A DNA stretch of 64,000 nt from Actinomycetota bacterium (GCA_018334075.1 JAGXSC010000044.1:131591-195590); one strand, 5' to 3'; positions 7,628 to 18,375 are shown, numbered from the stretch's first letter. Notes: generated by a model from the letters alone, not told the origin. Program-made: numbers and translations.

Positions 7628-8890
7628 ATGTCAAGTACGGTTGTAGCAACGAGTCCGCCCACATATATTGTATCCCGGTGGAGTATACCGATCGCCGGGT
7701 TGCTGCTGACCCTGATGGGCGGAATCGCGTATGCGTGGGGCGTTTTTATTGTGCCACTGGAGACGACATATGGCTGGACCAGGGCACAGGCGGCTATGCC
7801 GGTGTCGATTTATCTTGCAGTGTTTAGCGTGACAATGATATTCGGTGGCATGTTGCAAGATAAGTACGGCCCCAGGGTGGTCGCCGTTTCTGGAGGCGTA
7901 CTCTTCCTGATCGGATATCTGCTTGCAACACAAGTTGAGCGTTTCACCGACGTATGGTGGTTGGTTCTTACATACGGAGTTATCGGTGGACTTGGATGTG
8001 GTCTTGCATACTGTGTCGCGGTACCCACAATCCGGAAATGGTTCCCAGATCGAGTTGGGTTCGCAATCACTGTAGGACTGATCGGCTTTGGAATCGCCTC
8101 GGCAGTGTTTGCGCCCTGGATAACCCGTCTGATTGCTACAGTGGGAATCCCCAACACTTTTTTGGTGCTGGGTATTATCACCAGCTTGGTTACATTCTTT
8201 GCTGCTTGGCTGATAAGATTGCCCGCGCCAGGCTGGTCGCCACCAGGTTGGGACAGCTCTCCAGGGGCGAACGGCAACGGCTTGCTTGCGCCTCGAACAG
8301 AAGCCACCTTAGCTGAAGCAATGAAAACACCCAAGCTCTACCTTATATGGATAGGGTTCGTATTGATCATCTTCGGTGGGTTGATGGCCATGACCCACGT
8401 TGCCCCTTACGGAGTCTCAATCCTGGGACTCGAAAAAACAACGGCCGCTCTCGCAATGACCTTCTTTGGATTGGCAAATGGATTTGGCCGACCGGTTGCA
8501 GGCTATCTAGCCGAGAAGATCGGGCCCGTCAACGTGATGCTCGGCACATACCTGATCACCGCAGCCACTTACTTTGCCTTCAACACCTTTGCCACTAGCG
8601 CCCTTACCCTGTACATAAGCGCGTTTATATTGGGCTTCGGTTTCGCTGTAACCCTGGGATTGTTCCCGGTACTGACCACCGTGTCATTCGGAGTAAAGAA
8701 TCTAGGTGCCATCTATGGTGTGGTGTTCACGGCATTCGGTGTGTCTGCATTCTTTGGCCCACAGGTTGGAGCCAGGCTTTACGACGCAACCGGCACATAT
8801 GTGGTTCCATTTGCGGTGGCGGGAGTATTCACCCTTATAGGCTGGCTCTTGGCTCTGTTCGCTTACAAGCTGAAGTACAAGCTTCCCTAG
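7628..8890 (+). CDS. OFA family MFS transporter (oxalate/formate antiporter-like)
   Basis: 420 aa with about twelve hydrophobic segments. The OFA-type MFS pattern is visible: GGIAYAWGVFIVPLETTYGW in helix 1, GGMLQDKYGPR in the 2-3 loop, and GGLGCGLAYCVAVPTIRKWFPDR, which includes the family YCVAVPTIRKWFPDR segment. The ATG at 7628 is preceded by GGAAGGAAGTGGAG; the frame extends to 7517 but those residues are hydrophilic and lack a ribosome site. The family exchanges small carboxylates such as oxalate/formate in Oxalobacter, but many members have other, mostly unknown monocarboxylate substrates. The gene is monocistronic and ends at a strong hairpin. Confidence 0.83.
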   Translation: MSSTVVATSPPTYIVSRWSIPIAGLLLTLMGGIAYAWGVFIVPLETTYGWTRAQAAMPVSIYLAVFSVTMIFGGMLQDKYGPRVVAVSGGVLFLIGYLLATQVERFTDVWWLVLTYGVIGGLGCGLAYCVAVPTIRKWFPDRVGFAITVGLIGFGIASAVFAPWITRLIATVGIPNTFLVLGIITSLVTFFAAWLIRLPAPGWSPPGWDSSPGANGNGLLAPRTEATLAEAMKTPKLYLIWIGFVLIIFGGLMAMTHVAPYGVSILGLEKTTAALAMTFFGLANGFGRPVAGYLAEKIGPVNVMLGTYLITAATYFAFNTFATSALTLYISAFILGFGFAVTLGLFPVLTTVSFGVKNLGAIYGVVFTAFGVSAFFGPQVGARLYDATGTYVVPFAVAGVFTLIGWLLALFAYKLKYKLP

Positions 8891-8919
8891 GACTTTTGAC
8901 ACAACAAACCACGGTAACA

Positions 8920-8953
8920 AGAAAGCGGGTCCACAAATTGTGGATCCGCTTTC
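8920..8953. terminator. Terminator-like hairpin after the OFA transporter
   Basis: A 17-bp near-perfect inverted repeat (AGAAAGCGGGTCCACAA and its complement with one G-T pairing), with essentially no loop, lies 30 nt after the transporter stop. The downstream T-run is short (TTTCTGCTTT), so it could end transcription from either side. It also marks the left boundary of the restriction island. Confidence 0.7.
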
Positions 8954-9021
8954 TGCTTTGGTGGGGGTGGGTGAGAAGATCTACGAACTTACTGTGCGAT
9001 CCAGCTGTCACCGGAACACAG

Positions 9022-9213
9022 TCAGCCGACTGCGCAAGTCCCGAGGTGTTGCGCTTCGGATGACATCGATGACAGACAAGCAGATCGCCGATGCCGTGAC
9101 CCGTACGAATCCGGGCTGTCGATCGCCAAGATGAAGTTAACCTCGAGAGTTCTTGTGGTCGGGTCATAACCGACCGACGCACAGTTGCTGCTTATGACCG
9201 GAATGCGCTGCAT
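9022..9213 (-). pseudogene. KTSC-domain protein fragment
   Basis: The first 28 codons encode a clear KTSC-domain start: MQRIPVISSNCASVGYDP then TLEVNF, matching the family pattern of a short strand, SSN..SVGYD and LEV.F. The conserved YxY centre and the C-terminal half are absent: after LEVNF the reading frame continues with unrelated, Ser/Arg-rich residues to a stop, as expected after a frameshift or deletion. KTSC was named for a domain at the C-terminus of some lysyl-tRNA synthetases and is suspected to bind RNA. It follows the DUF2130 gene by 15 nt in the same direction and has GGAAGGGG upstream, so it was part of the defence operon. Some neighbouring frames may hold the lost half, but I could not reconstruct it. 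Confidence 0.55.
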
Positions 9214-9227
9214 CACTCATCCCCTTC

Positions 9228-10526
9228 CTATTCCTCGCTTGAGTCTGCCTTCTCCAGCTCCGCGAACTTCGCTGCCATAGTCGGGTTGCCGCGCGTCAAC
9301 TTCTTGATCGACACATCTTGGGCCTTGTTGTTTGCCAGACGGAGGTTGTTCTCGGAACCAAGAAGTTCGGCCTTCGTTTTCTCGAGACTCTTGATGGTCT
9401 TGTCAATCTCAGCGATGGCGTTCTGGAACTTCCGTGAAGCCAAGTCATAGTTCCTGGCGAAGCCTGACTTGAACGCCTCCAGGTCCTCCTCGAAGTTGGT
9501 GATGTCGATGTTCTGAGCCTTCATCAATGTAAGCTCCGACTTGTACTTCAAGGCGTTCTGCGCAGCATTGCGAAGTAGAGTGATCATCGGAATGAAGAAC
9601 TGTGGTCGGATGACGTACATCTTCGGATACCGGTGAGACACGTCCACGATGCCCGTGTTGTAGAGCTCGTTGTCCGGCTCCAGCAAAGAAACGAGTACGG
9701 CGTACTCGCAGCCCTTCTCGTTACGGTCCTTGTCGAGTTCCTTGAGGAAGTCCTCGTTCTTCTTTTTCGTCGCGGTGGTGTCGCACTCGTTCTTCATCTC
9801 AAACATGATAGACACACACTCGGTGCATGCTTCGTCGGAGTCGCGGAATATGTAGTCGCCCTTGCTGCCGCTGCTGCCGTCGTTGTCCTTCTCGAAGTAG
9901 GCGCGAGGGAAGGCCGTAGCGCGGATCTTGTTGAACTCCGTTTCGCAGTGCAGCTCCAGGGTCTCGCCGACCAACTTGGTGGACAGCTTGGCCTTCAGGT
10001 CTTTCAGGCGTTCGATGGCATCGTCGCGATCCCTGATCTGTGTCTCGTACTTCTCCTTGAGTGACGACTCGATCAACTTCTGCTGGGCATCCTTGACCTC
10101 TAGGTCACGTCTGAGATCGTCGCGCTCCTTCTCAACAGTGCCGAGTGCCTCCTTGAGCTCAAGTTGCTTGGCGACGTCGGCCTTCTCCAGTTCCGCCTTC
10201 AGGCGAGCTATCTCTGCGTCCTTCTTCGTAGCCTCCTCCTTGAGCTCGCCGGTGGCCTTCGCTTGAGCCAGCTCGACGCTCGTCTTCAATTCCTCTCTGA
10301 GGCGCTCGATCTCCGCATCCTTCTTGGCTGCTGCCCTCTCCATCTCGCTGGCGACCTTGGTCTCTGCGAGTTCAACGGCTTGCTTCTTGTCTTGCTCGGC
10401 TAGCACTAGCCGATCGTGCAGAGCCTGGTCGAAGGCTTCGTCGCGTACCTGCTTCAAGATGTCCGCGTAACCGGCCTCATCAATGTTGAATGTCTTGCCG
10501 CAATGCGGGCATTTGATCTCGTGCAT
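9228..10526 (-). CDS. DUF2130 protein: zinc ribbon, coiled coil and PD-(D/E)XK-like domain
   Basis: 432 aa. Residues 5-20 carry [12 protein letters not shown], half of a zinc-ribbon-like motif. Residues about 25-185 are a long charged coiled coil rich in Ala, Glu and Lys. The C-terminal part is the DUF2130 (PF09903) domain. There GDYIF (Asp224) followed by FEMKNE (Glu243-x-Lys245) fits the D...ExK signature of PD-(D/E)XK nucleases, and the long coiled coil resembles RmuC. This suggests a DNA-processing or nuclease role; it is not proven. It starts 2 nt after the AAA ATPase and is the last full gene of the restriction island, so a defence function is plausible. Confidence 0.75.
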
Positions 10527-10528
10527 AA

Positions 10529-12958
10529 TTACACCTCCTCTTTGGATTCATCATATTCTTGAGCATCTTCAACCGCCCCGAGCTCGTCGGAAGCAGCAGG
10601 CAATACATCTTTCGGATCAACTCCGGTCACGATGCATAGGCCCGCAAAATGAGGGCCGTCAATCTGGTTCATGAACTCGAAGACAGCCTCTATAGCCGTC
10701 TTGACCTCATCGGGACTCACAGTCGTATCGGTCGCGGGGCTCTCGCTATGTGAGTAGGCGTGCGTGTATCGGGTCAGACGCAGCCGCAGAGCGCCTGCAT
10801 CACCTTGGTAGCCAGCCTCACGAAGAAGATCTGCCGAGTTGTGCATGGCCAGAGTGAAGTTGCCAACCCACTCGGGGTGCTTAAAGGCTAGAAACGTCTC
10901 CAACATTCGTCGGATCACGTTGGGAAACAGCAGCTGCGCATCTAGCCGGTTTTCCATCGAGTCATCAGCCTGGAGATCCTTGAGCTTGTCGACTGTAGCA
11001 ATGAATGCGTGGTGATACGTCGAGCGTACCTTCTTGCGAGTGGCCTCGGTAGGAGGCCACTCGGCGATGACGGGCGAACGCCTCGTCTTGCTCAAGCGCG
11101 TCACATGCTTGGACTTAAGCTCGTAGAACGAAGCCGGGCAGAGGTCCCTCATCTTCTTGCTGGTCGTCTTGTCTCGCCCTGAGTTGTGAAGCGCTTCTAT
11201 CTGTATGTCCCACTGCCGGAATAGCTCGAAGTTGTGGGTCAACAAGATCAGCTGGGCAATGTGATCTTTGACAACTGCTTCGTTCCATATGTAAGTGGAG
11301 ACACCCATGAAGATCTCGTTGTCGAGGCTGGAAACAGGATCATCGATTACGACGATGGGCTTGCCTATGCAGGCATCGCACCGCGCTACCACTTCCAGAA
11401 AGTGAACGAGAGTAACAGCGGTTCGCTCGCCTACGCTAAGTCCAGTGGCTGGTTCGCCGTCTCGAGTCACTTGGTACTTGCCGTCGACGGCCTCGAACTT
11501 CAGTTCGTTTCGCCCAAGCAGCCGCGCAACTTCTTCGGTTAACACCTTGGCACTCGGAGTCGGGTCACCATCAACCGCTTCCAGCGCCGTGACTTGATTG
11601 GTCAGCTTCAAAAGCTCTTCGTTGAGCTTGTCGGCCGCCGCCTTCTGCTTGACCGACTCGGCCTTCTTCCCAGCAACCTCCGACTCGCCCTTCTTCAAGT
11701 AGTGCAGTTCGACGGCCTTCGCTGCAGCTTGAACAACCTCATCGTGCTTAGAGACCCGATCGTTATGTTCATCGCGCAGTTTGATGAATTCTTTGCCTTC
11801 CACGGTCGACGGTGCATCAACCTCGGGATCAACCGGCATCAGAACATTCGCCAGCTTCGCCTCCAACCTCTTCTTAACCCCATTTGTCCATGCCTGTAAG
11901 GAGCCGAGTTCCTCGCGGAGCTTTCCTTCGGATTCGTCGTATCTGGCGCGCAGATCTTCAAGAAACAGGCCCTTGCTCGGTACGGCCCGAAGCGAGGATT
12001 CCACCTTCGACTCGATGCTCGCGAGTTCGGTCATGATTCCGCGCAACTCGCGCTGCAGTTGTTGCACGGCATCCGAAAAATGCTGATCAATCTGGGAACG
12101 GCGCTCATCGCTGAGAGAAGATCCGCAAAAAATACACGTATCCACTCCTTCGTGGTGGTGCCGACCTTGATCCACCCATTCGGTGGCGTCCGGGTGTGTC
12201 TGCAACGTGTCGAGGATGATCGTGCTAGGCGTGGTCCCGAGTGCAGCCGAGATTCTGTGCCGGATGTCGTCCGGTACGCTGACCACCAGCTCTTCTTCGG
12301 GAAGCGCCTCCGCTTTGTCAGCGTTGATGATCCCCGTCTTCTCCTGGAATTCCTGCTTAGTAAGCTCAGTCCAAGTCGCGTGGTCTTGGCCGAACATCGT
12401 TCGGACCATGCGTGTGCTGAAATTGCTGCGGGAGTGATACCTGCCCCCGGCCTTGCTGGCGGCATCGACGACCTGCTGTGACACCCGGCTGTAGGTAGTC
12501 TCTATCGCCTGATTGGCAGCACGCTCCGTATCCACTGCAGCGTCGCGCTCTGCGGTCTTCGCGGCGACCGTCGTTCGCAGATATTCGAGCTGTTTCTCCA
12601 CGTCGGCTGCCTTCTCGCCGATCGTGAGTACAGCAGTCATCTCTGCTTCTGCGGGCGTGAACTTGTGGCTTCTAGACACATAGCACTCACTGAACACATG
12701 AACCCGCTCGAAGAACGGGTTGTCATTACCGTTGGTCGCTATTGAGGTTCCATTGTCATCGATGGTCACCGACAACTTCTTGTAGCCTTTTCCGTCGTCG
12801 GCGTTTCGCAATCCGTCAAGTGCATCCGAGAGTGAGGTCTTGCCGGTGCCGTTGGATCCATAGATCACGTTGATCCGAGCGAGATCGGGGAGACCCGCGC
12901 CCCAGCGGTAATCCTCAAAGATGCCGCAGGCCTTAATGGAGTCCAGCTTGCGGAGCAT
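10529..12958 (-). CDS. AAA_13 ATPase, candidate RloC/PrrC-like anticodon nuclease
   Basis: About 809 aa from the ATG at 12958 (GGAG 6 nt upstream; an ATG at 12970 is also in frame). Numbering from the 12970 ATG: Walker [10 protein letters not shown] at 38-46, a long coiled-coil middle with CIFCGSSL (Cys279, Cys282) like the zinc hook of RloC, ABC signature LSVGERTA at 511 and Walker [12 protein letters not shown] near 541. This is the split ABC ATPase layout of AAA_13/PrrC/RloC proteins. The C-terminal domain (about 640-775) has RRMLE (Arg687, Glu691) and RYTHAYSH (Arg734...His741), compatible with a HEPN-type RNase and with the Arg-Glu-His order of the PrrC tRNA-cleaving triad. The start overlaps the end of res. 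Such nucleases guard restriction systems by cleaving tRNA when restriction is inactivated. Confidence 0.72.
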
Positions 12959-15936
12959 CACAATCTCCATTCATCCGGCACGCTGACCGCATAGCCCGGG
13001 ACGGTATCAGTGCCAATGCCCAGCTGCTTGAAGTGTTCCGTTGCGGCCTTGATCTTGGCGTTCTCAGTCGGGCGGCGCTTGGACTCATCCCACGTGCTCT
13101 TGGTCTCGCGGATCATATAGATACGATCCTCGCCATTCTCGTCCTGCTTGATAATCGCCCAGTCAGGGTTATACGGCCCCACGGGCGTCTCGATCTTGAA
13201 CTTGCTGGGCAGCTTCATGAAGAACTTCACGTCTTCGCGCGAGTCCAGTTTTGCAGCGAACTGGCGCTCCGGCGCATCTGCCCCTTCAGAGTCAATCTGG
13301 ATGTAGTCGAAGTCGGTCTTCTCGGTGTGCTCGACCTTGTAGACGCGATCCAGGAACAGGTCACGCTCTTCGGCGCCGTCAGCCTGCAGTTCGCGCAACT
13401 CGTAAACGTAGCCGCCGATCTTCTCGTACTGAACGCCTTCCTGAATGGCGGCGGCCACCACGTTTTGCAGGTTGCGCTTGACCATCGCTATGAAGTCGTT
13501 GGGATTGCCGATGAACTCATCAAGCTTGCCCGAGCGCGTTAACACGTCCACCAGTGTTTTGCGAGTGAGTGACGTTGCCTCCTGCAGCTCAGCAATGATG
13601 TCGGGCAGCTGGTAAGTACCTGCCAACTCCGCCGCCCGCGTGGCAGTCTCCGATGTCTTCGTGCCGCCACGCACCAACTTCACGCCTGCACGGGTTACTT
13701 GTACTCGAAGAGGCAGAATGGGCTGCTCAGCCTTGATCCTGTTGACGGCGTTTTCGATGACTTCATCTCGCTTGAGCGTCACGCGGTAGGTGGTCTTCTG
13801 CGAAATTGTGCGCCAGAAGTCCTCGAACCACGGCGACGAGTAGATCTCCTTGTTCAACTTGCGCGACACACGTTTGCGCTGAGTCTTCACGATGCGCTCG
13901 ATGCGACAGTTGAGCATCACATCGATGATGTCGTCTTGGGGCCAGAAGAAGTCGGGCACTGGGCCGAGTGTGAAGCCGAGCGTTTCGGGACGGAAGTTCG
14001 CGGTGACTTTGCCTTCCTTGTCGATGAAGCTACGTTCGACCAATTCGTCCCAGATCAACTTGGAGCCTTGGAAACCCAGGCGCTTTTCCTCGCCAGTGAC
14101 TTCATCCGTCGTCCAAATCTTGGCAAATTCACCGGGACGTACCAAGCCGATGCTAACGCCAGAATCGCGGTACTCCTTCTGCAGGCTGTCAGCGAACTCG
14201 CGATACGATTCGTTGGCCACGACGGTCAGTTGCGCGATGCCCTTGTCGGGCACCCTCTCACCAGATTGGTTAACCGGCAGACGCAAACCACGTCCAATTG
14301 TCTGGCGACGCTCAGTGGCTTCACCCATCTCCCGTAGAGCGCAGATCTGAAAGACGTTGGGGTTGTCCCAACCCTCTCGCAGAGCGGAGTGGCTAAAGAT
14401 GAACCGCACCGGCTCACTTTCATCCAGCAACCGCGCCTTGTCGCGCATGATCAAGTCGTAGGCATCATCATCAGCCTTCGAGGTACCGCTAGTGTCTTTG
14501 AACGTGTCATGCTGACCTTTCTTGCCTTTGATAGCCGAGAAATAAGCGCGGCGGTACTCAACCGGGTCGAGAGGTAACGCTTCCATCCATTTGCTATTCT
14601 TCGAACGTTCCTCTACTAGCAGCTCATCGAACCACATCACGAAATCACCGTTAGCTGTGTTGTTGCTGTACCCATCGCCGAGAAAGCTCGCGACCTTATC
14701 CACAAAAAACAGGCTGAGCACCTTGATGCCGTGCGGTCGAAGCATCTCCTCTTTGCGCAGGTGTTCACGAATTGTCTCGCGGATCATCTCGCGGTAGATG
14801 GAATCGTTGGAGCCACCGATGGTCTCACCCGCCTGAATCCACCCATGCGGGAACAGCTCGACTGATTCAGGCTCGATGCTCAGCTCATTGACCCGCCAGC
14901 CTTCATAGGCGGAGTTATCAGTGACCAGTGCGAGGTCCTGGCCGTTCTTGACGTTCAGCGTCTTGCGCTTGATGGCACCACCCGTCTTATAACGCACGGC
15001 CAATTCCATGCAGGCAAGAAAACCCCTGTCATTACGAACTGACTGGAGCTTTACGTACGGCGTGGCATCAGCGCCTTCCTGTAGGGCTTCGGCCACCACG
15101 ATCTGTTTGACCAAGCCAAGTTCGTGAGCGTCAACAGGGTCAAGCCGGTAAACAACGTTGCGCGTCTTGCGATGCGTTGCCGAGTATCGAAGGGTGCACA
15201 ACGGATTGAGTTCCCCTACTGCAGACTGGCTCAGTAACGACTCCATGTTCTGCGGCTCGTCCATGATGAGCACCGGATGTGTGGCCTTCAGGTAGTCGAT
15301 GGGCCGCAGTCCGTTGAGCTTTTCGCGGGTCTGGTAAATAACACGTGTGTTTTTGTCACCACGCAGCGAGTCGATGGTCATTACCATGATCTGCACACTC
15401 GTGGAAGTGGCGAAGGACTGGACCTCTTCCGGCGTGCTGCCGCTGTAAACGAACAAATCGAACGGCGTGGCGTAGAGGTCTTTGAAGTGATTGGTCATCA
15501 GCTTGATGCTGGTGGTCACACCCTCACGGATGGCGACGCTCGGCACGAGGATAATGAATTTGGTGAAGTTGTAGTTCCTGGCCAGTTCGAAGATGGTACG
15601 CAGATACACATACGTCTTACCGGTGCCGGTCTCCATCTCGATGTCGAAATCTAGCGATCCCCCAGCCAGCTCACTCACTACTTCGAGGCCGTTGCGGTCC
15701 TGCACGGCTTGTAGATTCTGCAATATGGTGGCTTCGTCGAGTATTAGGTTGTTGCCGACCGCGCCGACCTCGCTGGCTATCTCAAAAGCCCGCACTTGGT
15801 CACCGGAGTCCGGCGTCATGCCCTGTAATGTCGTCATCAGCGACGCAGCGTCACTGGGCTGGCCATCGAATAGATCAACCACTGCGGCAATGGCGTCCTG
15901 CTGAAACTCCTGGTGGGCATCAAACTTGAACTCCAT
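12958..15936 (-). CDS. res: Type III restriction endonuclease, Res subunit
   Basis: 992 aa superfamily 2 helicase-nuclease. Visible motifs: Walker A METGTGKTY at 101-109, the DEPQ box at 226-229, motif VI ATERRQTIGRGLRLPVN around residue 570, and a C-terminal PD-(D/E)XK nuclease with NPDWAIIK followed by RETKS. With Mod it forms a type III restriction enzyme that translocates or diffuses between inversely oriented unmethylated sites and cuts DNA about 25 bp away. Mod lies immediately upstream and the AAA_13 gene overlaps its 3' end by 1-13 nt, implying a single operon. Length is typical for Res, and no motif is broken. Confidence 0.93.
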   Translation of the reverse strand: MEFKFDAHQEFQQDAIAAVVDLFDGQPSDAASLMTTLQGMTPDSGDQVRAFEIASEVGAVGNNLILDEATILQNLQAVQDRNGLEVVSELAGGSLDFDIEMETGTGKTYVYLRTIFELARNYNFTKFIILVPSVAIREGVTTSIKLMTNHFKDLYATPFDLFVYSGSTPEEVQSFATSTSVQIMVMTIDSLRGDKNTRVIYQTREKLNGLRPIDYLKATHPVLIMDEPQNMESLLSQSAVGELNPLCTLRYSATHRKTRNVVYRLDPVDAHELGLVKQIVVAEALQEGADATPYVKLQSVRNDRGFLACMELAVRYKTGGAIKRKTLNVKNGQDLALVTDNSAYEGWRVNELSIEPESVELFPHGWIQAGETIGGSNDSIYREMIRETIREHLRKEEMLRPHGIKVLSLFFVDKVASFLGDGYSNNTANGDFVMWFDELLVEERSKNSKWMEALPLDPVEYRRAYFSAIKGKKGQHDTFKDTSGTSKADDDAYDLIMRDKARLLDESEPVRFIFSHSALREGWDNPNVFQICALREMGEATERRQTIGRGLRLPVNQSGERVPDKGIAQLTVVANESYREFADSLQKEYRDSGVSIGLVRPGEFAKIWTTDEVTGEEKRLGFQGSKLIWDELVERSFIDKEGKVTANFRPETLGFTLGPVPDFFWPQDDIIDVMLNCRIERIVKTQRKRVSRKLNKEIYSSPWFEDFWRTISQKTTYRVTLKRDEVIENAVNRIKAEQPILPLRVQVTRAGVKLVRGGTKTSETATRAAELAGTYQLPDIIAELQEATSLTRKTLVDVLTRSGKLDEFIGNPNDFIAMVKRNLQNVVAAAIQEGVQYEKIGGYVYELRELQADGAEERDLFLDRVYKVEHTEKTDFDYIQIDSEGADAPERQFAAKLDSREDVKFFMKLPSKFKIETPVGPYNPDWAIIKQDENGEDRIYMIRETKSTWDESKRRPTENAKIKAATEHFKQLGIGTDTVPGYAVSVPDEWRL

Positions 15937-15938
15937 CG

Positions 15939-17852
15939 TTAGGCCGTCCAGAGTTCCACGCCGCGTGACCTACATTCTTGAACAAGGTTGGTTTTGAGCT
16001 CGTCATCACCGTGGAATACGTCTTCGAGGATGATGAGGCGGGCTGGCTTTTCGGCAATTACCACACGCAGCTGCTCTAGTGACGGCTTGGTGCGCTCGTC
16101 GAGGTACGCGAGCACAAGTCCCTCACCGACTGTCTTGAGCTTGAGGCCCGAGACTTCAGTGTCCCCGATCCGCTCGGTGAGTGAATAGCCCTGCTTGAGC
16201 AAGATCTCGGTCAGCAAGGCCTCAGGCGTTGCCTCGTCAGCCGCGCTGTCGCGCAAGTCGAGTAGGTGCTGCTCTAGCGTTGTTGCATCTGTCTCGCTTG
16301 CCACGCGCCACTTCGAGAAGTTGGTGTCAGCGAGGCAGTACGCGCGAAATCCTAAGTCTAGCGGAGTCTCGCGCAAATCCAATCGCGTCGAGTCTTCGTC
16401 GGCAATGTGCTCCGCAGCGAGCTCAATGCGACGTCGTGAAATCTCTGCGATCGTTTCGAAACCCGCACTGCGAGCGATAGAACCTTCGGGGGTCGGTTCA
16501 GGCAGCTGAACCTGGATATGAACTCGATTCCCGCCATCGACGAGATTCTGCTTCATCACGGCGTGCGCTGTCGTTCCTGAGCCAGAGAAAAAGTCTAGGA
16601 TGATCGAATCTCTGTCAGAGCCGATCTGGATTACCCGTTGGATCAGCCCAGTCGGCTTGGGCGAATCGAATACCTTCTGGCCGTCGAAGAGTCCGCGAAC
16701 CTCACGCGTGCCCTTCTTATTGCCGTCCACGTCGGTCCAGAGGTTCGACGGACGCTTGTCGCGACCTTCAAGGTAGAACTTCTGATAGGGATGCCATTCA
16801 GCCACAGAGCTGCGCTCGATCAGCCTCCACTCGACGAGTCCCTCGGCTTCCATCTCCGCGAAACGGCTCCTGCCGCAGATCCATCGGCTCTCATACCCGC
16901 CAGGACCAATCGGGAACACCTCTACGCCATCTGGGGACTTCACCCCGTAATACATACTCGGCCTGTCTTCACGCCGGTCCTCGCCTCCCGTGCGGCGGAG
17001 GGAACGTGTGAGGTACTTGCCGCGCGCATCCTCCTCGTTGTAGATGGCGGCATCGCTCTCGCCAAACTCCAATCCATTCAGTATCGCAACAGGACTTCGG
17101 CGATAGACAACCATGAAGTCAACGGTGTTCGTCAGCCCGTCGAACCCACCACCCGTCGGAGTACCTGTCGCTCGCGTGATGAGACCGACAAAGTTCGACT
17201 CACCGAACACCTCATTTCCAAGCTTGCGCAGGTTATCGAGTTCGTGATCATCGATAGCGATGAAGATGACGCCATCTTCCGTCAGCAGGTTTCTTGCGAG
17301 CTTGAGTCGCGGGTACATCATGTTGAGCCAGTTAGAGTGATAGCGACCCTCGGTCTCGCTGTTGGTACTGACCTTCTTGCCTTCCTCGTTGACCTGGCGG
17401 GTCCACTCCAGATAGGTTTCCAGCCCCTCTTTGTAGTTATCGGGGTACACAAAGTCCCTACCGGTGTTGTACGGGGGATCGATGTATATCATCTTGATCT
17501 TGCCGTGATAGTGCTTCTGCAGGATCTTGAGCACTTCGAGGTTGTCGCCCTCGATGAAGACATTCTTGGTGGTGTCCCAGTCCTTCGAGTTCTCGAAGTC
17601 GGGCTTCAGCGTCGCCGTGGTAGGCTCCTGCGCTGCACGCAGCGCGCGTTTCTTGCCCGGCCAGAACAACCCGAAGCGCTCACGGTCGTCACCCGCATCG
17701 TCACCAAGGAGCTCCTTGAGCTTCTCGACATCGACCTTGCCATCGGCAATGGCCTCAGGAATCAGCTCAGAGAGTTGCGCGGCAAGCTCAGTCTTGAAGT
17801 TCGGTGTAGTGCGCGGGGTTTCATGGATGTCCTGTAAATCGTCACTGCTCAT
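15939..17852 (-). CDS. mod: Type III DNA methyltransferase, Mod subunit
   Basis: 637 aa adenine-N6 methyltransferase. The catalytic motif DPPYNTG sits at 125-131 and the S-adenosylmethionine motif FFSGSGTTAH at 421-430, so motif IV precedes motif I as in the beta class that type III Mod enzymes use. The central part between them holds the target recognition region, so the recognised sequence cannot be read off. Mod protects host DNA and also supplies sequence recognition for Res, whose gene begins 2 nt downstream. A purine-rich site precedes the ATG. No simple-sequence repeat suggesting phase variation is visible in the gene. Confidence 0.92.
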   Translation of the reverse strand: MSSDDLQDIHETPRTTPNFKTELAAQLSELIPEAIADGKVDVEKLKELLGDDAGDDRERFGLFWPGKKRALRAAQEPTTATLKPDFENSKDWDTTKNVFIEGDNLEVLKILQKHYHGKIKMIYIDPPYNTGRDFVYPDNYKEGLETYLEWTRQVNEEGKKVSTNSETEGRYHSNWLNMMYPRLKLARNLLTEDGVIFIAIDDHELDNLRKLGNEVFGESNFVGLITRATGTPTGGGFDGLTNTVDFMVVYRRSPVAILNGLEFGESDAAIYNEEDARGKYLTRSLRRTGGEDRREDRPSMYYGVKSPDGVEVFPIGPGGYESRWICGRSRFAEMEAEGLVEWRLIERSSVAEWHPYQKFYLEGRDKRPSNLWTDVDGNKKGTREVRGLFDGQKVFDSPKPTGLIQRVIQIGSDRDSIILDFFSGSGTTAHAVMKQNLVDGGNRVHIQVQLPEPTPEGSIARSAGFETIAEISRRRIELAAEHIADEDSTRLDLRETPLDLGFRAYCLADTNFSKWRVASETDATTLEQHLLDLRDSAADEATPEALLTEILLKQGYSLTERIGDTEVSGLKLKTVGEGLVLAYLDERTKPSLEQLRVVIAEKPARLIILEDVFHGDDELKTNLVQECRSRGVELWTA

Positions 17853-17864
17853 TGAATGTTTCCT

Positions 17865-17924
17865 CTATCCAGATTGCCAAAGTTCGTAGGCGTAGTACTT
17901 AGACTGGTAGGCAGTGAGGCTCAT
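17865..17924 (-). pseudogene. Remnant of the N-terminus of an SNF2-type helicase
   Basis: A 19-codon stub, MSLTAYQSKYYAYEL followed by WQSG and a stop. The first 15 residues resemble the start of large SNF2/RapA-like helicases (LTPYQAKYFAHEL-type) that occur beside mod/res pairs in extended type III-like systems. Everything after that is missing and mod begins 13 nt later. I read this as a deletion that removed a helicase gene. The match is short, so the reading is tentative. Confidence 0.4.
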
Positions 17925-18033
17925 CGACACCCCACGCCACCAAGTGGCAATTGATTGCCCCCAGCTCATCAGCGGCCTTCCGCAGTCGCTGTACAGGTGT
18001 CTTGTTGTGCTTCGCCTTGCTTGAGCGCGCCAT
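17899..18033 (-). CDS. Small unrecognised ORF at the head of the restriction island
   Basis: A 44-codon frame starting MARSSKAKHNKTPVQRL and ending HCLPV, overlapping the helicase stub in another frame. It is basic at the N-terminus and has no family I recognise. It could be a short leader gene of the original operon or a gene truncated with the helicase. No strong ribosome site is seen. Coding status is uncertain. Confidence 0.3.
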   Translation of the reverse strand: MARSSKAKHNKTPVQRLRKAADELGAINCHLVAWGVDEPHCLPV

Positions 18034-18299
18034 ATTCCGTGCTCCATCCTATTAGTCCGGGATAAGATCCCCGGCGACCTTCAGCAGTCCCCCTCGATTA
18101 TAAGCCCAGCCACTGACATGCGGGCGCAAGAATGCAGCGGATCAGAAAGCAACGCGGATACCTACATTTAAAATATCACATGGATAAATCGTCACAAACG
18201 TGTGAGCGGCGAGGCATTCAGAAGCCTATATCGCGATCTGATGAGGTCTAGGAGTACTTCGTCTGTCTCGGCCGCTAAAGGGATTGCAACAGACTCTTT
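18034..18299. other. Non-coding stretch between the restriction island and tRNA-Ala
   Basis: About 266 nt with no credible gene. The middle (about 18160-18200) is locally AT-rich (TTTAAAATATCA) and may contain the promoter of the minus-strand restriction operon. No integrase, insertion sequence or long inverted repeat is seen. Confidence 0.45.
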
Positions 18300-18375
18300 T
18301 GGTGGAGCCTAGGGGGATCGAACCCCTGACCTCTTGGCTGCCAGCCAAGCGCTCTCCCAGCTGAGCTAAGGCCCC
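18300..18375 (-). tRNA. tRNA-Ala (anticodon GGC)
   Basis: A complete 76-nt cloverleaf: acceptor GGGGCCT/AGGCTCC with the alanine identity pair G3-U70 and discriminator A73, D-stem GCTC/GAGC, anticodon stem CTTGG/CCAAG with loop CTGGCAG (anticodon GGC), T-arm AGGGG TTCGATC CCCCT and an encoded CCA. It lies between the ABC cassette and the restriction island, with its 3' end facing the island, the usual orientation for integration at a tRNA gene. Confidence 0.97.

Follow-up and report, generated by a model that had tools for sequence, protein, structure and literature searches.

The window, by which we mean the whole 64,000-nt stretch of DNA analysed, belongs to a host genome of 1.89 Mb and carries, beside a tRNA-Ala gene, four intact and co-directional minus-strand ORFs in the order mod, res, AAA_13 and DUF2130 (Table 1). 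Their spacing is 2 nt between mod and res, a 13-nt overlap between res and AAA_13, and again 2 nt between AAA_13 and DUF2130. Pfam and PADLOC agree on the genes, and the dense packing near tRNA-Ala described in a sequence-only reading of this DNA is thus borne out. Promoters and terminators of the operon were also searched for, and the scan gave no signals above those of shuffled sequence.

Table 1. Features of the operon and its surroundings (positions in the window)
Feature	Position (nt)	Strand	Basis
mod, type III DNA methyltransferase, 637 aa	15939..17852	-	N6_N4_Mtase 110 bits; PADLOC MTase_III 589 bits
res, type III restriction subunit, 992 aa	12958..15936	-	ResIII + RE_endonuc; PADLOC REase_III 867 bits
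RloC-type ABC-ATPase/anticodon-nuclease candidate (AAA_13), 813 aa	10529..12970	-	PF13166 424 bits
DUF2130 protein, 432 aa	9228..10526	-	PF09903 307 bits (curated cut-off 26.7)
KTSC-domain fragment	9022..9216	-	Pfam, 20/58 profile positions
Helicase stump, SNF2-type N-terminus	17865..17924	-	Match to gene preceding mod-res in nearest relative
tRNA-Ala(GGC), edge of variable site, upstream of operon	18300..18375	-	

The first two genes have the sequence make-up that defines type III restriction-modification (R-M), namely a Mod of the N6/N4 MTase family and a Res with helicase and C-terminal endonuclease domains. Catalytic motifs are intact in both Mod (DPPY at 125, FSGSG at 422) and Res (GTGKT, DEPQ and a C-terminal PD...ExK). 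Directly 5' of mod lies a stump reading MSLTAYQSKYYAYEL, which agrees at 12 of 15 positions with the N-terminal start of the SNF2-type helicase that precedes mod-res in locus L081, where the nearest Mod-Res pair is found. The R-M system therefore appears to be of the helicase-Mod-Res type, the helicase having been lost in the window. A 44-aa ORF overlapping the stump in another frame gave no significant match. The KTSC piece, which the sequence-only reading listed in the island as a fragment, was rejected as a working component: it scores 24 bits against a cut-off of 25 (PF13619), covers about a third of the profile and is a fragment.

The site itself is variable. The same-family genome in locus L329 retains the MFS gene (84%) and tRNA-Ala, and has one glycosyltransferase gene between them (3643-5195 in L329 versus 8890-18300 in the window). 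Two ABC-transporter genes that lie across the tRNA from the island are also missing in L329. No convincing attachment-site repeats were found flanking the island.

By every published sequence criterion that can be tested, the AAA_13 protein is RloC. According to Davidov & Kaufmann (2008, PMC2610378), RloC proteins are 658-897 aa long, have ABC motifs like those of PrrC, bear a CXXC zinc hook within a coiled-coil insert and carry a C-terminal Arg-X3-Glu-X36-52-His triad in which Ser often precedes the His. The length of the window's protein falls inside that range. Its ABC motifs comprise Walker A (GSNGTGKT, 38-45), the signature LSVGE (511-515), Walker B with the D-loop (IDDP, 539-548) and the switch H579, and between Walker A and the signature lies the hook CIFC (279-282). 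The putative nuclease triad is R687-X3-E691-X49-H741, with S740 before the His. These key residues are invariant in an alignment of nine AAA_13 proteins, six of them merely 19-27% identical to the window's, and both hook cysteines are invariant across nine homologues. PrrC was considered and ruled out as its identity, since PrrC proteins are 341-416 aa long, have no hook insert and are linked to type I systems, whereas the window's protein is 813 aa long, has the hook and has type III neighbours. The AlphaFold model of RloC was poor (pLDDT 58), and a sequence search of the PDB with the RloC and DUF2130 proteins returned nothing useful. We also observed RloC-like proteins that keep the Arg and Glu and have no catalytic His, all in type III operons (L158 7938-10232, L202 5804-8110 and L209 7908-10214).

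The last gene of the operon encodes what is probably a PD-(D/E)XK nuclease, as far as sequence and predicted structure can tell. The protein has an N-terminal CPHC motif. Beyond it, a long helix or coiled coil (30-205) is predicted, then strands on which D224 and E243-x-K245 lie, and finally another helix and strand. The predicted core, helix-strand-strand-strand-helix-strand, has a PD-(D/E)XK-like topology. The D...E-x-K residues are conserved, the D and ExK being kept even in the 28%-identical homologue from the viral-contig locus L158. Most of the top fold matches in the PDB are PD-(D/E)XK restriction enzymes; these matches are weak, with a best E of 0.017. DNA-end processing by this protein, as the sequence-only reading imagined, would be a guess going beyond a probable nuclease. 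PADLOC has no model matching DUF2130, and no DUF2130 match was found in sequenced phages. Among papers searchable in full text, a set outside which lie most subscription papers and all preprints, three name DUF2130 and one names PF09903, and none of the three concerns defence by its title or abstract. As a separate observation, DUF2130 occurs among phage-like genes in five viral-contig loci (L125, L126, L130, L133 and L134).

The exact four-gene set is rare. AAA_13 was found nearby in 5/96 Res-centred loci and DUF2130 in one, L158; among 79 AAA_13-centred viral-contig loci, 20 had R-M genes and one, again L158, had DUF2130. No closer copy of the set was found by an AAA_13 search of 397 genomes of the window's phylum, or in 297 genomes of the class of G299, the genome that holds L081. 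The parts, moreover, have relatives in other company. The nearest Mod-Res pair (Res 83%, Mod 61%) is followed by AddB-like, UvrD and NucS-like genes. The nearest RloC proteins (61-63%) come after type I hsd genes and before a patatin and a CD-NTase gene of the CBASS type. That closest relatives keep different neighbours argues for modularity. In these latter loci (L002 4107-8814 and L003 6761-11456), where RloC lies between a type I R-M system and a CBASS-like module, patatin and CD-NTase are 89-91% identical between the genomes. DUF2130 genes are frequently solitary, and in the window's class they stand among housekeeping genes such as uvrC, a name given by eye from the sequence.

The sequence-only reading had proposed a search for conserved neighbourhoods and conceded that the grouping would be accidental if homologous operons never kept AAA_13 and DUF2130 together with mod and res. 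The search was run and the grouping survived it: there are DUF2130/R-M/ATPase groupings in L158, L044, L303 and L045, the first of which holds all four families. Locus L158 reads Mod - Abi_C - Res - DUF2130 - RloC - helicase, with every one of the four above its Pfam cut-off; DUF2130 follows Res after 24 nt and overlaps RloC by 14 nt. Its proteins are 25-37% identical to the window's and its DUF2130 falls into a separate, fully supported clade; because of this distance, the two sets were probably assembled separately. Related arrangements with type III genes are OLD-DUF2130-Mod-Res on Enterobacter and Citrobacter plasmids (L044/L316) and DUF2130-OLD-UvrD-Mod-Res on an Aliarcobacter plasmid (L303). 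The latter plasmid carries, in a single run (7989-16103), DUF2130, OLD and UvrD (a Gabija-like pair), a type III methylase, RhuM and a helicase. Elsewhere DUF2130 and RloC stand beside a type II R-M system (L045), DUF2130 neighbours a Mod/Res-like pair (L040), and type I systems either contain a DUF2130 gene or lie next to one (L136, L304/L313 and L135). Such combinations in unrelated bacteria suggest that RloC, DUF2130 and R-M genes probably work together.

A frequent element of these groupings is the adjacency of DUF2130 and an ABC-type ATPase gene, which it adjoins at -14 to +92 nt in the window, L158, L045, L044/L316, L121, L123, L303 and L305/L317. The partner is RloC in the window, L158 and L045, OLD in L044/L316, L121/L124, L123 and L303 (at 1-2 nt), and TrlF in L305/L317. 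This arrangement is seen in eight of about 30 mobile loci that are distinct from one another, and the eight represent two deep clades of DUF2130; the figure is an estimate from a convenience sample of plasmids and viral contigs and not a census or an enrichment statistic. Lactococcus plasmids offer the best evidence that DUF2130 may partner the ATPase and not Res. From one plasmid to another, DUF2130 and a divergent 377-aa gene each show 97% identity, but the gene that follows encodes RloC on one and TrlF on another, the ATPase having been exchanged and DUF2130 kept. The loci concerned span 7464-12623 in L045, 6463-11871 in L305 and 5464-10871 in L317, and the conserved 377-aa gene has no Pfam match.

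Part of this picture was already in the literature. Type I or III R-M loci contain 8 of 72 RloC genes (PMC2610378); the coupling of a type III system to RloC, which the sequence-only reading took, with DUF2130 added, for a new arrangement, was thus reported in 2008. The logic of layered restriction and tRNase defence was likewise proposed in a survey of HEPN domains (PMC3710099). The sequence 'restriction disabled, then RNA cleavage' is that of PrrC and may fail to carry over to RloC, because the latter is believed to be under the control of its own ATPase and zinc hook and of DNA damage (PMC2610378, PMC3710099, PMC3874168). A search of the TrlF literature found nothing relevant. Of the whole combination, the DUF2130 part alone looks new, and its novelty lies in the repeated company that DUF2130 keeps, within restriction operons, with ATPases of the RloC, OLD and TrlF kinds.

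What we observed are the genes present, their motifs and spacing, their recurrence across loci that are unrelated, and the swapping of partners. From this we build our interpretation, that of a modular, layered, horizontally acquired operon of R-M and anticodon nuclease with DUF2130 as the partner of the ABC-type ATPase. We put its probability at roughly 0.55. The operon would be transcribed jointly. In the first layer, Mod would mark self DNA and Res would cut unmodified incoming DNA. In the second layer, RloC, a zinc-hook ATPase of the SMC/Rad50-like kind that ends in a predicted HEPN anticodon nuclease, would be restrained by its ATPase and hook and released upon DNA breaks or failing restriction; tRNA cleavage would then stop translation. 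DUF2130 would most likely be a coiled-coil PD-(D/E)XK nuclease acting with the operon's ABC-type ATPase (RloC here, OLD or TrlF elsewhere), and not with Res, in a Rad50-Mre11-like cooperation that would involve physical contact with RloC.

We find this layered reading plausible, and part of it has precedents. It draws support from the +2/-13/+2 spacing, the RloC sequence features, the set in L158, the adjacency to ATPases and the Lactococcus swap, as well as from the type III linkage in L044 and L303, the Mod/Res-like pair beside DUF2130 in L040, the PD-(D/E)XK-like prediction and the variable site in the same-family genome. It is weakened by the rarity of the set, the other partners of the nearest Mod-Res and RloC, the solitary DUF2130 genes, the L158 RloC without a catalytic His, the weak fold match of DUF2130 and the lost helicase. 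Overall, the layered system of the sequence-only reading survives in its RloC component and in its recurrence with DUF2130 and R-M genes, and gives up the novelty of the type III coupling and the KTSC part. It is tempting to extend the idea and to suppose that SMC/ABC-type defence ATPases (RloC, OLD, TrlF) have in DUF2130 a general nuclease partner, one repeatedly recruited into restriction operons as a Rad50-Mre11-like effector layer absent from the defence catalogues searched; we advance this broader proposal tentatively and regard it as doubtful.

The same island might instead be a stack of independent defence genes at a tRNA-Ala hotspot, in which R-M, RloC and DUF2130 each act alone and the tight spacing reflects nothing beyond co-transcription. 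The differing neighbours of each part's nearest relatives would fit such an origin, as would the variable site with its lone glycosyltransferase in the related genome, the many loci with solitary DUF2130 and the RloC genes that, in most genomes, are not part of an R-M locus (PMC2610378). However, chance stacking does not readily account for the adjacency of DUF2130 and an ABC-type ATPase in 8 of about 30 mobile loci from two deep clades, for the recurrence of type III Mod-Res with the pair, or for a pairing that survives a change of partner in Lactococcus. We consider independent stacking possible, though unlikely.

Other accounts alter the role of individual parts. DUF2130 might restrain or insulate the ATPase effector, either like an antitoxin or by capturing DNA ends and so preventing self-activation, and cut no DNA. 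Being co-encoded with potentially self-harming effectors of differing chemistry (RloC, OLD and TrlF) would be guard-like, and the long helix would suit docking onto coiled-coil ATPases; yet the D and ExK, retained in so distant a protein as that of L158, suggest catalysis, and solitary DUF2130 genes are common. Such a restraining role seems to us improbable. Much the same holds for a decaying island, whose R-M part no longer restricts and which would owe its remaining activity only to RloC and/or to a Mod serving as an orphan methylase. The SNF2 helicase stump and the KTSC fragment look like traces of decay, but all four genes, rloC and DUF2130 as well as mod and res, retain their full length and their motifs, and classical type III systems require Mod and Res alone.

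The interest of the operon is twofold. The main known example of R-M with an anticodon nuclease behind it is PrrC, a type I case, and an operon of type III R-M, RloC and DUF2130, apparently assembled at least two times, offers a compact way to ask whether an RloC that sits in a restriction operon responds to failing restriction or to broken DNA. For DUF2130, a widespread family, the recurrent pairing with defence ATPases of the ABC type provides a first concrete hypothesis.

Finally, we would like to set the operon against known systems. PrrC-EcoprrI, a type IC R-M system with an embedded anticodon nuclease, likewise has a second-line tRNase in a restriction operon and the same kind of triad; unlike it, the window combines a type III system with a hook-bearing protein of the RloC type. 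The RloC of Geobacillus kaustophilus (PMC2610378) resembles the window's in length, ABC motifs, a CXXC hook between helical stretches and the R-X3-E-X36-52-(S)H pattern, and its family is occasionally linked to type I or III R-M; in the window, by contrast, the gene overlaps res and is followed immediately by DUF2130, and the activity is predicted. The helicase-type III system of L081 shares the sequence and order of Mod and Res, while in the window the SNF2-type helicase is lost and RloC-DUF2130 lies downstream in place of the AddB-like, UvrD and NucS-like genes. With the type III loci of L044/L316 and L303, finally, the window shares a DUF2130 gene 1-2 nt from an ABC-type ATPase in the R-M operon, although the ATPase there is an OLD/TOPRIM nuclease, followed in L303 by UvrD as in the GajA-GajB pair of Gabija, and here it is RloC.
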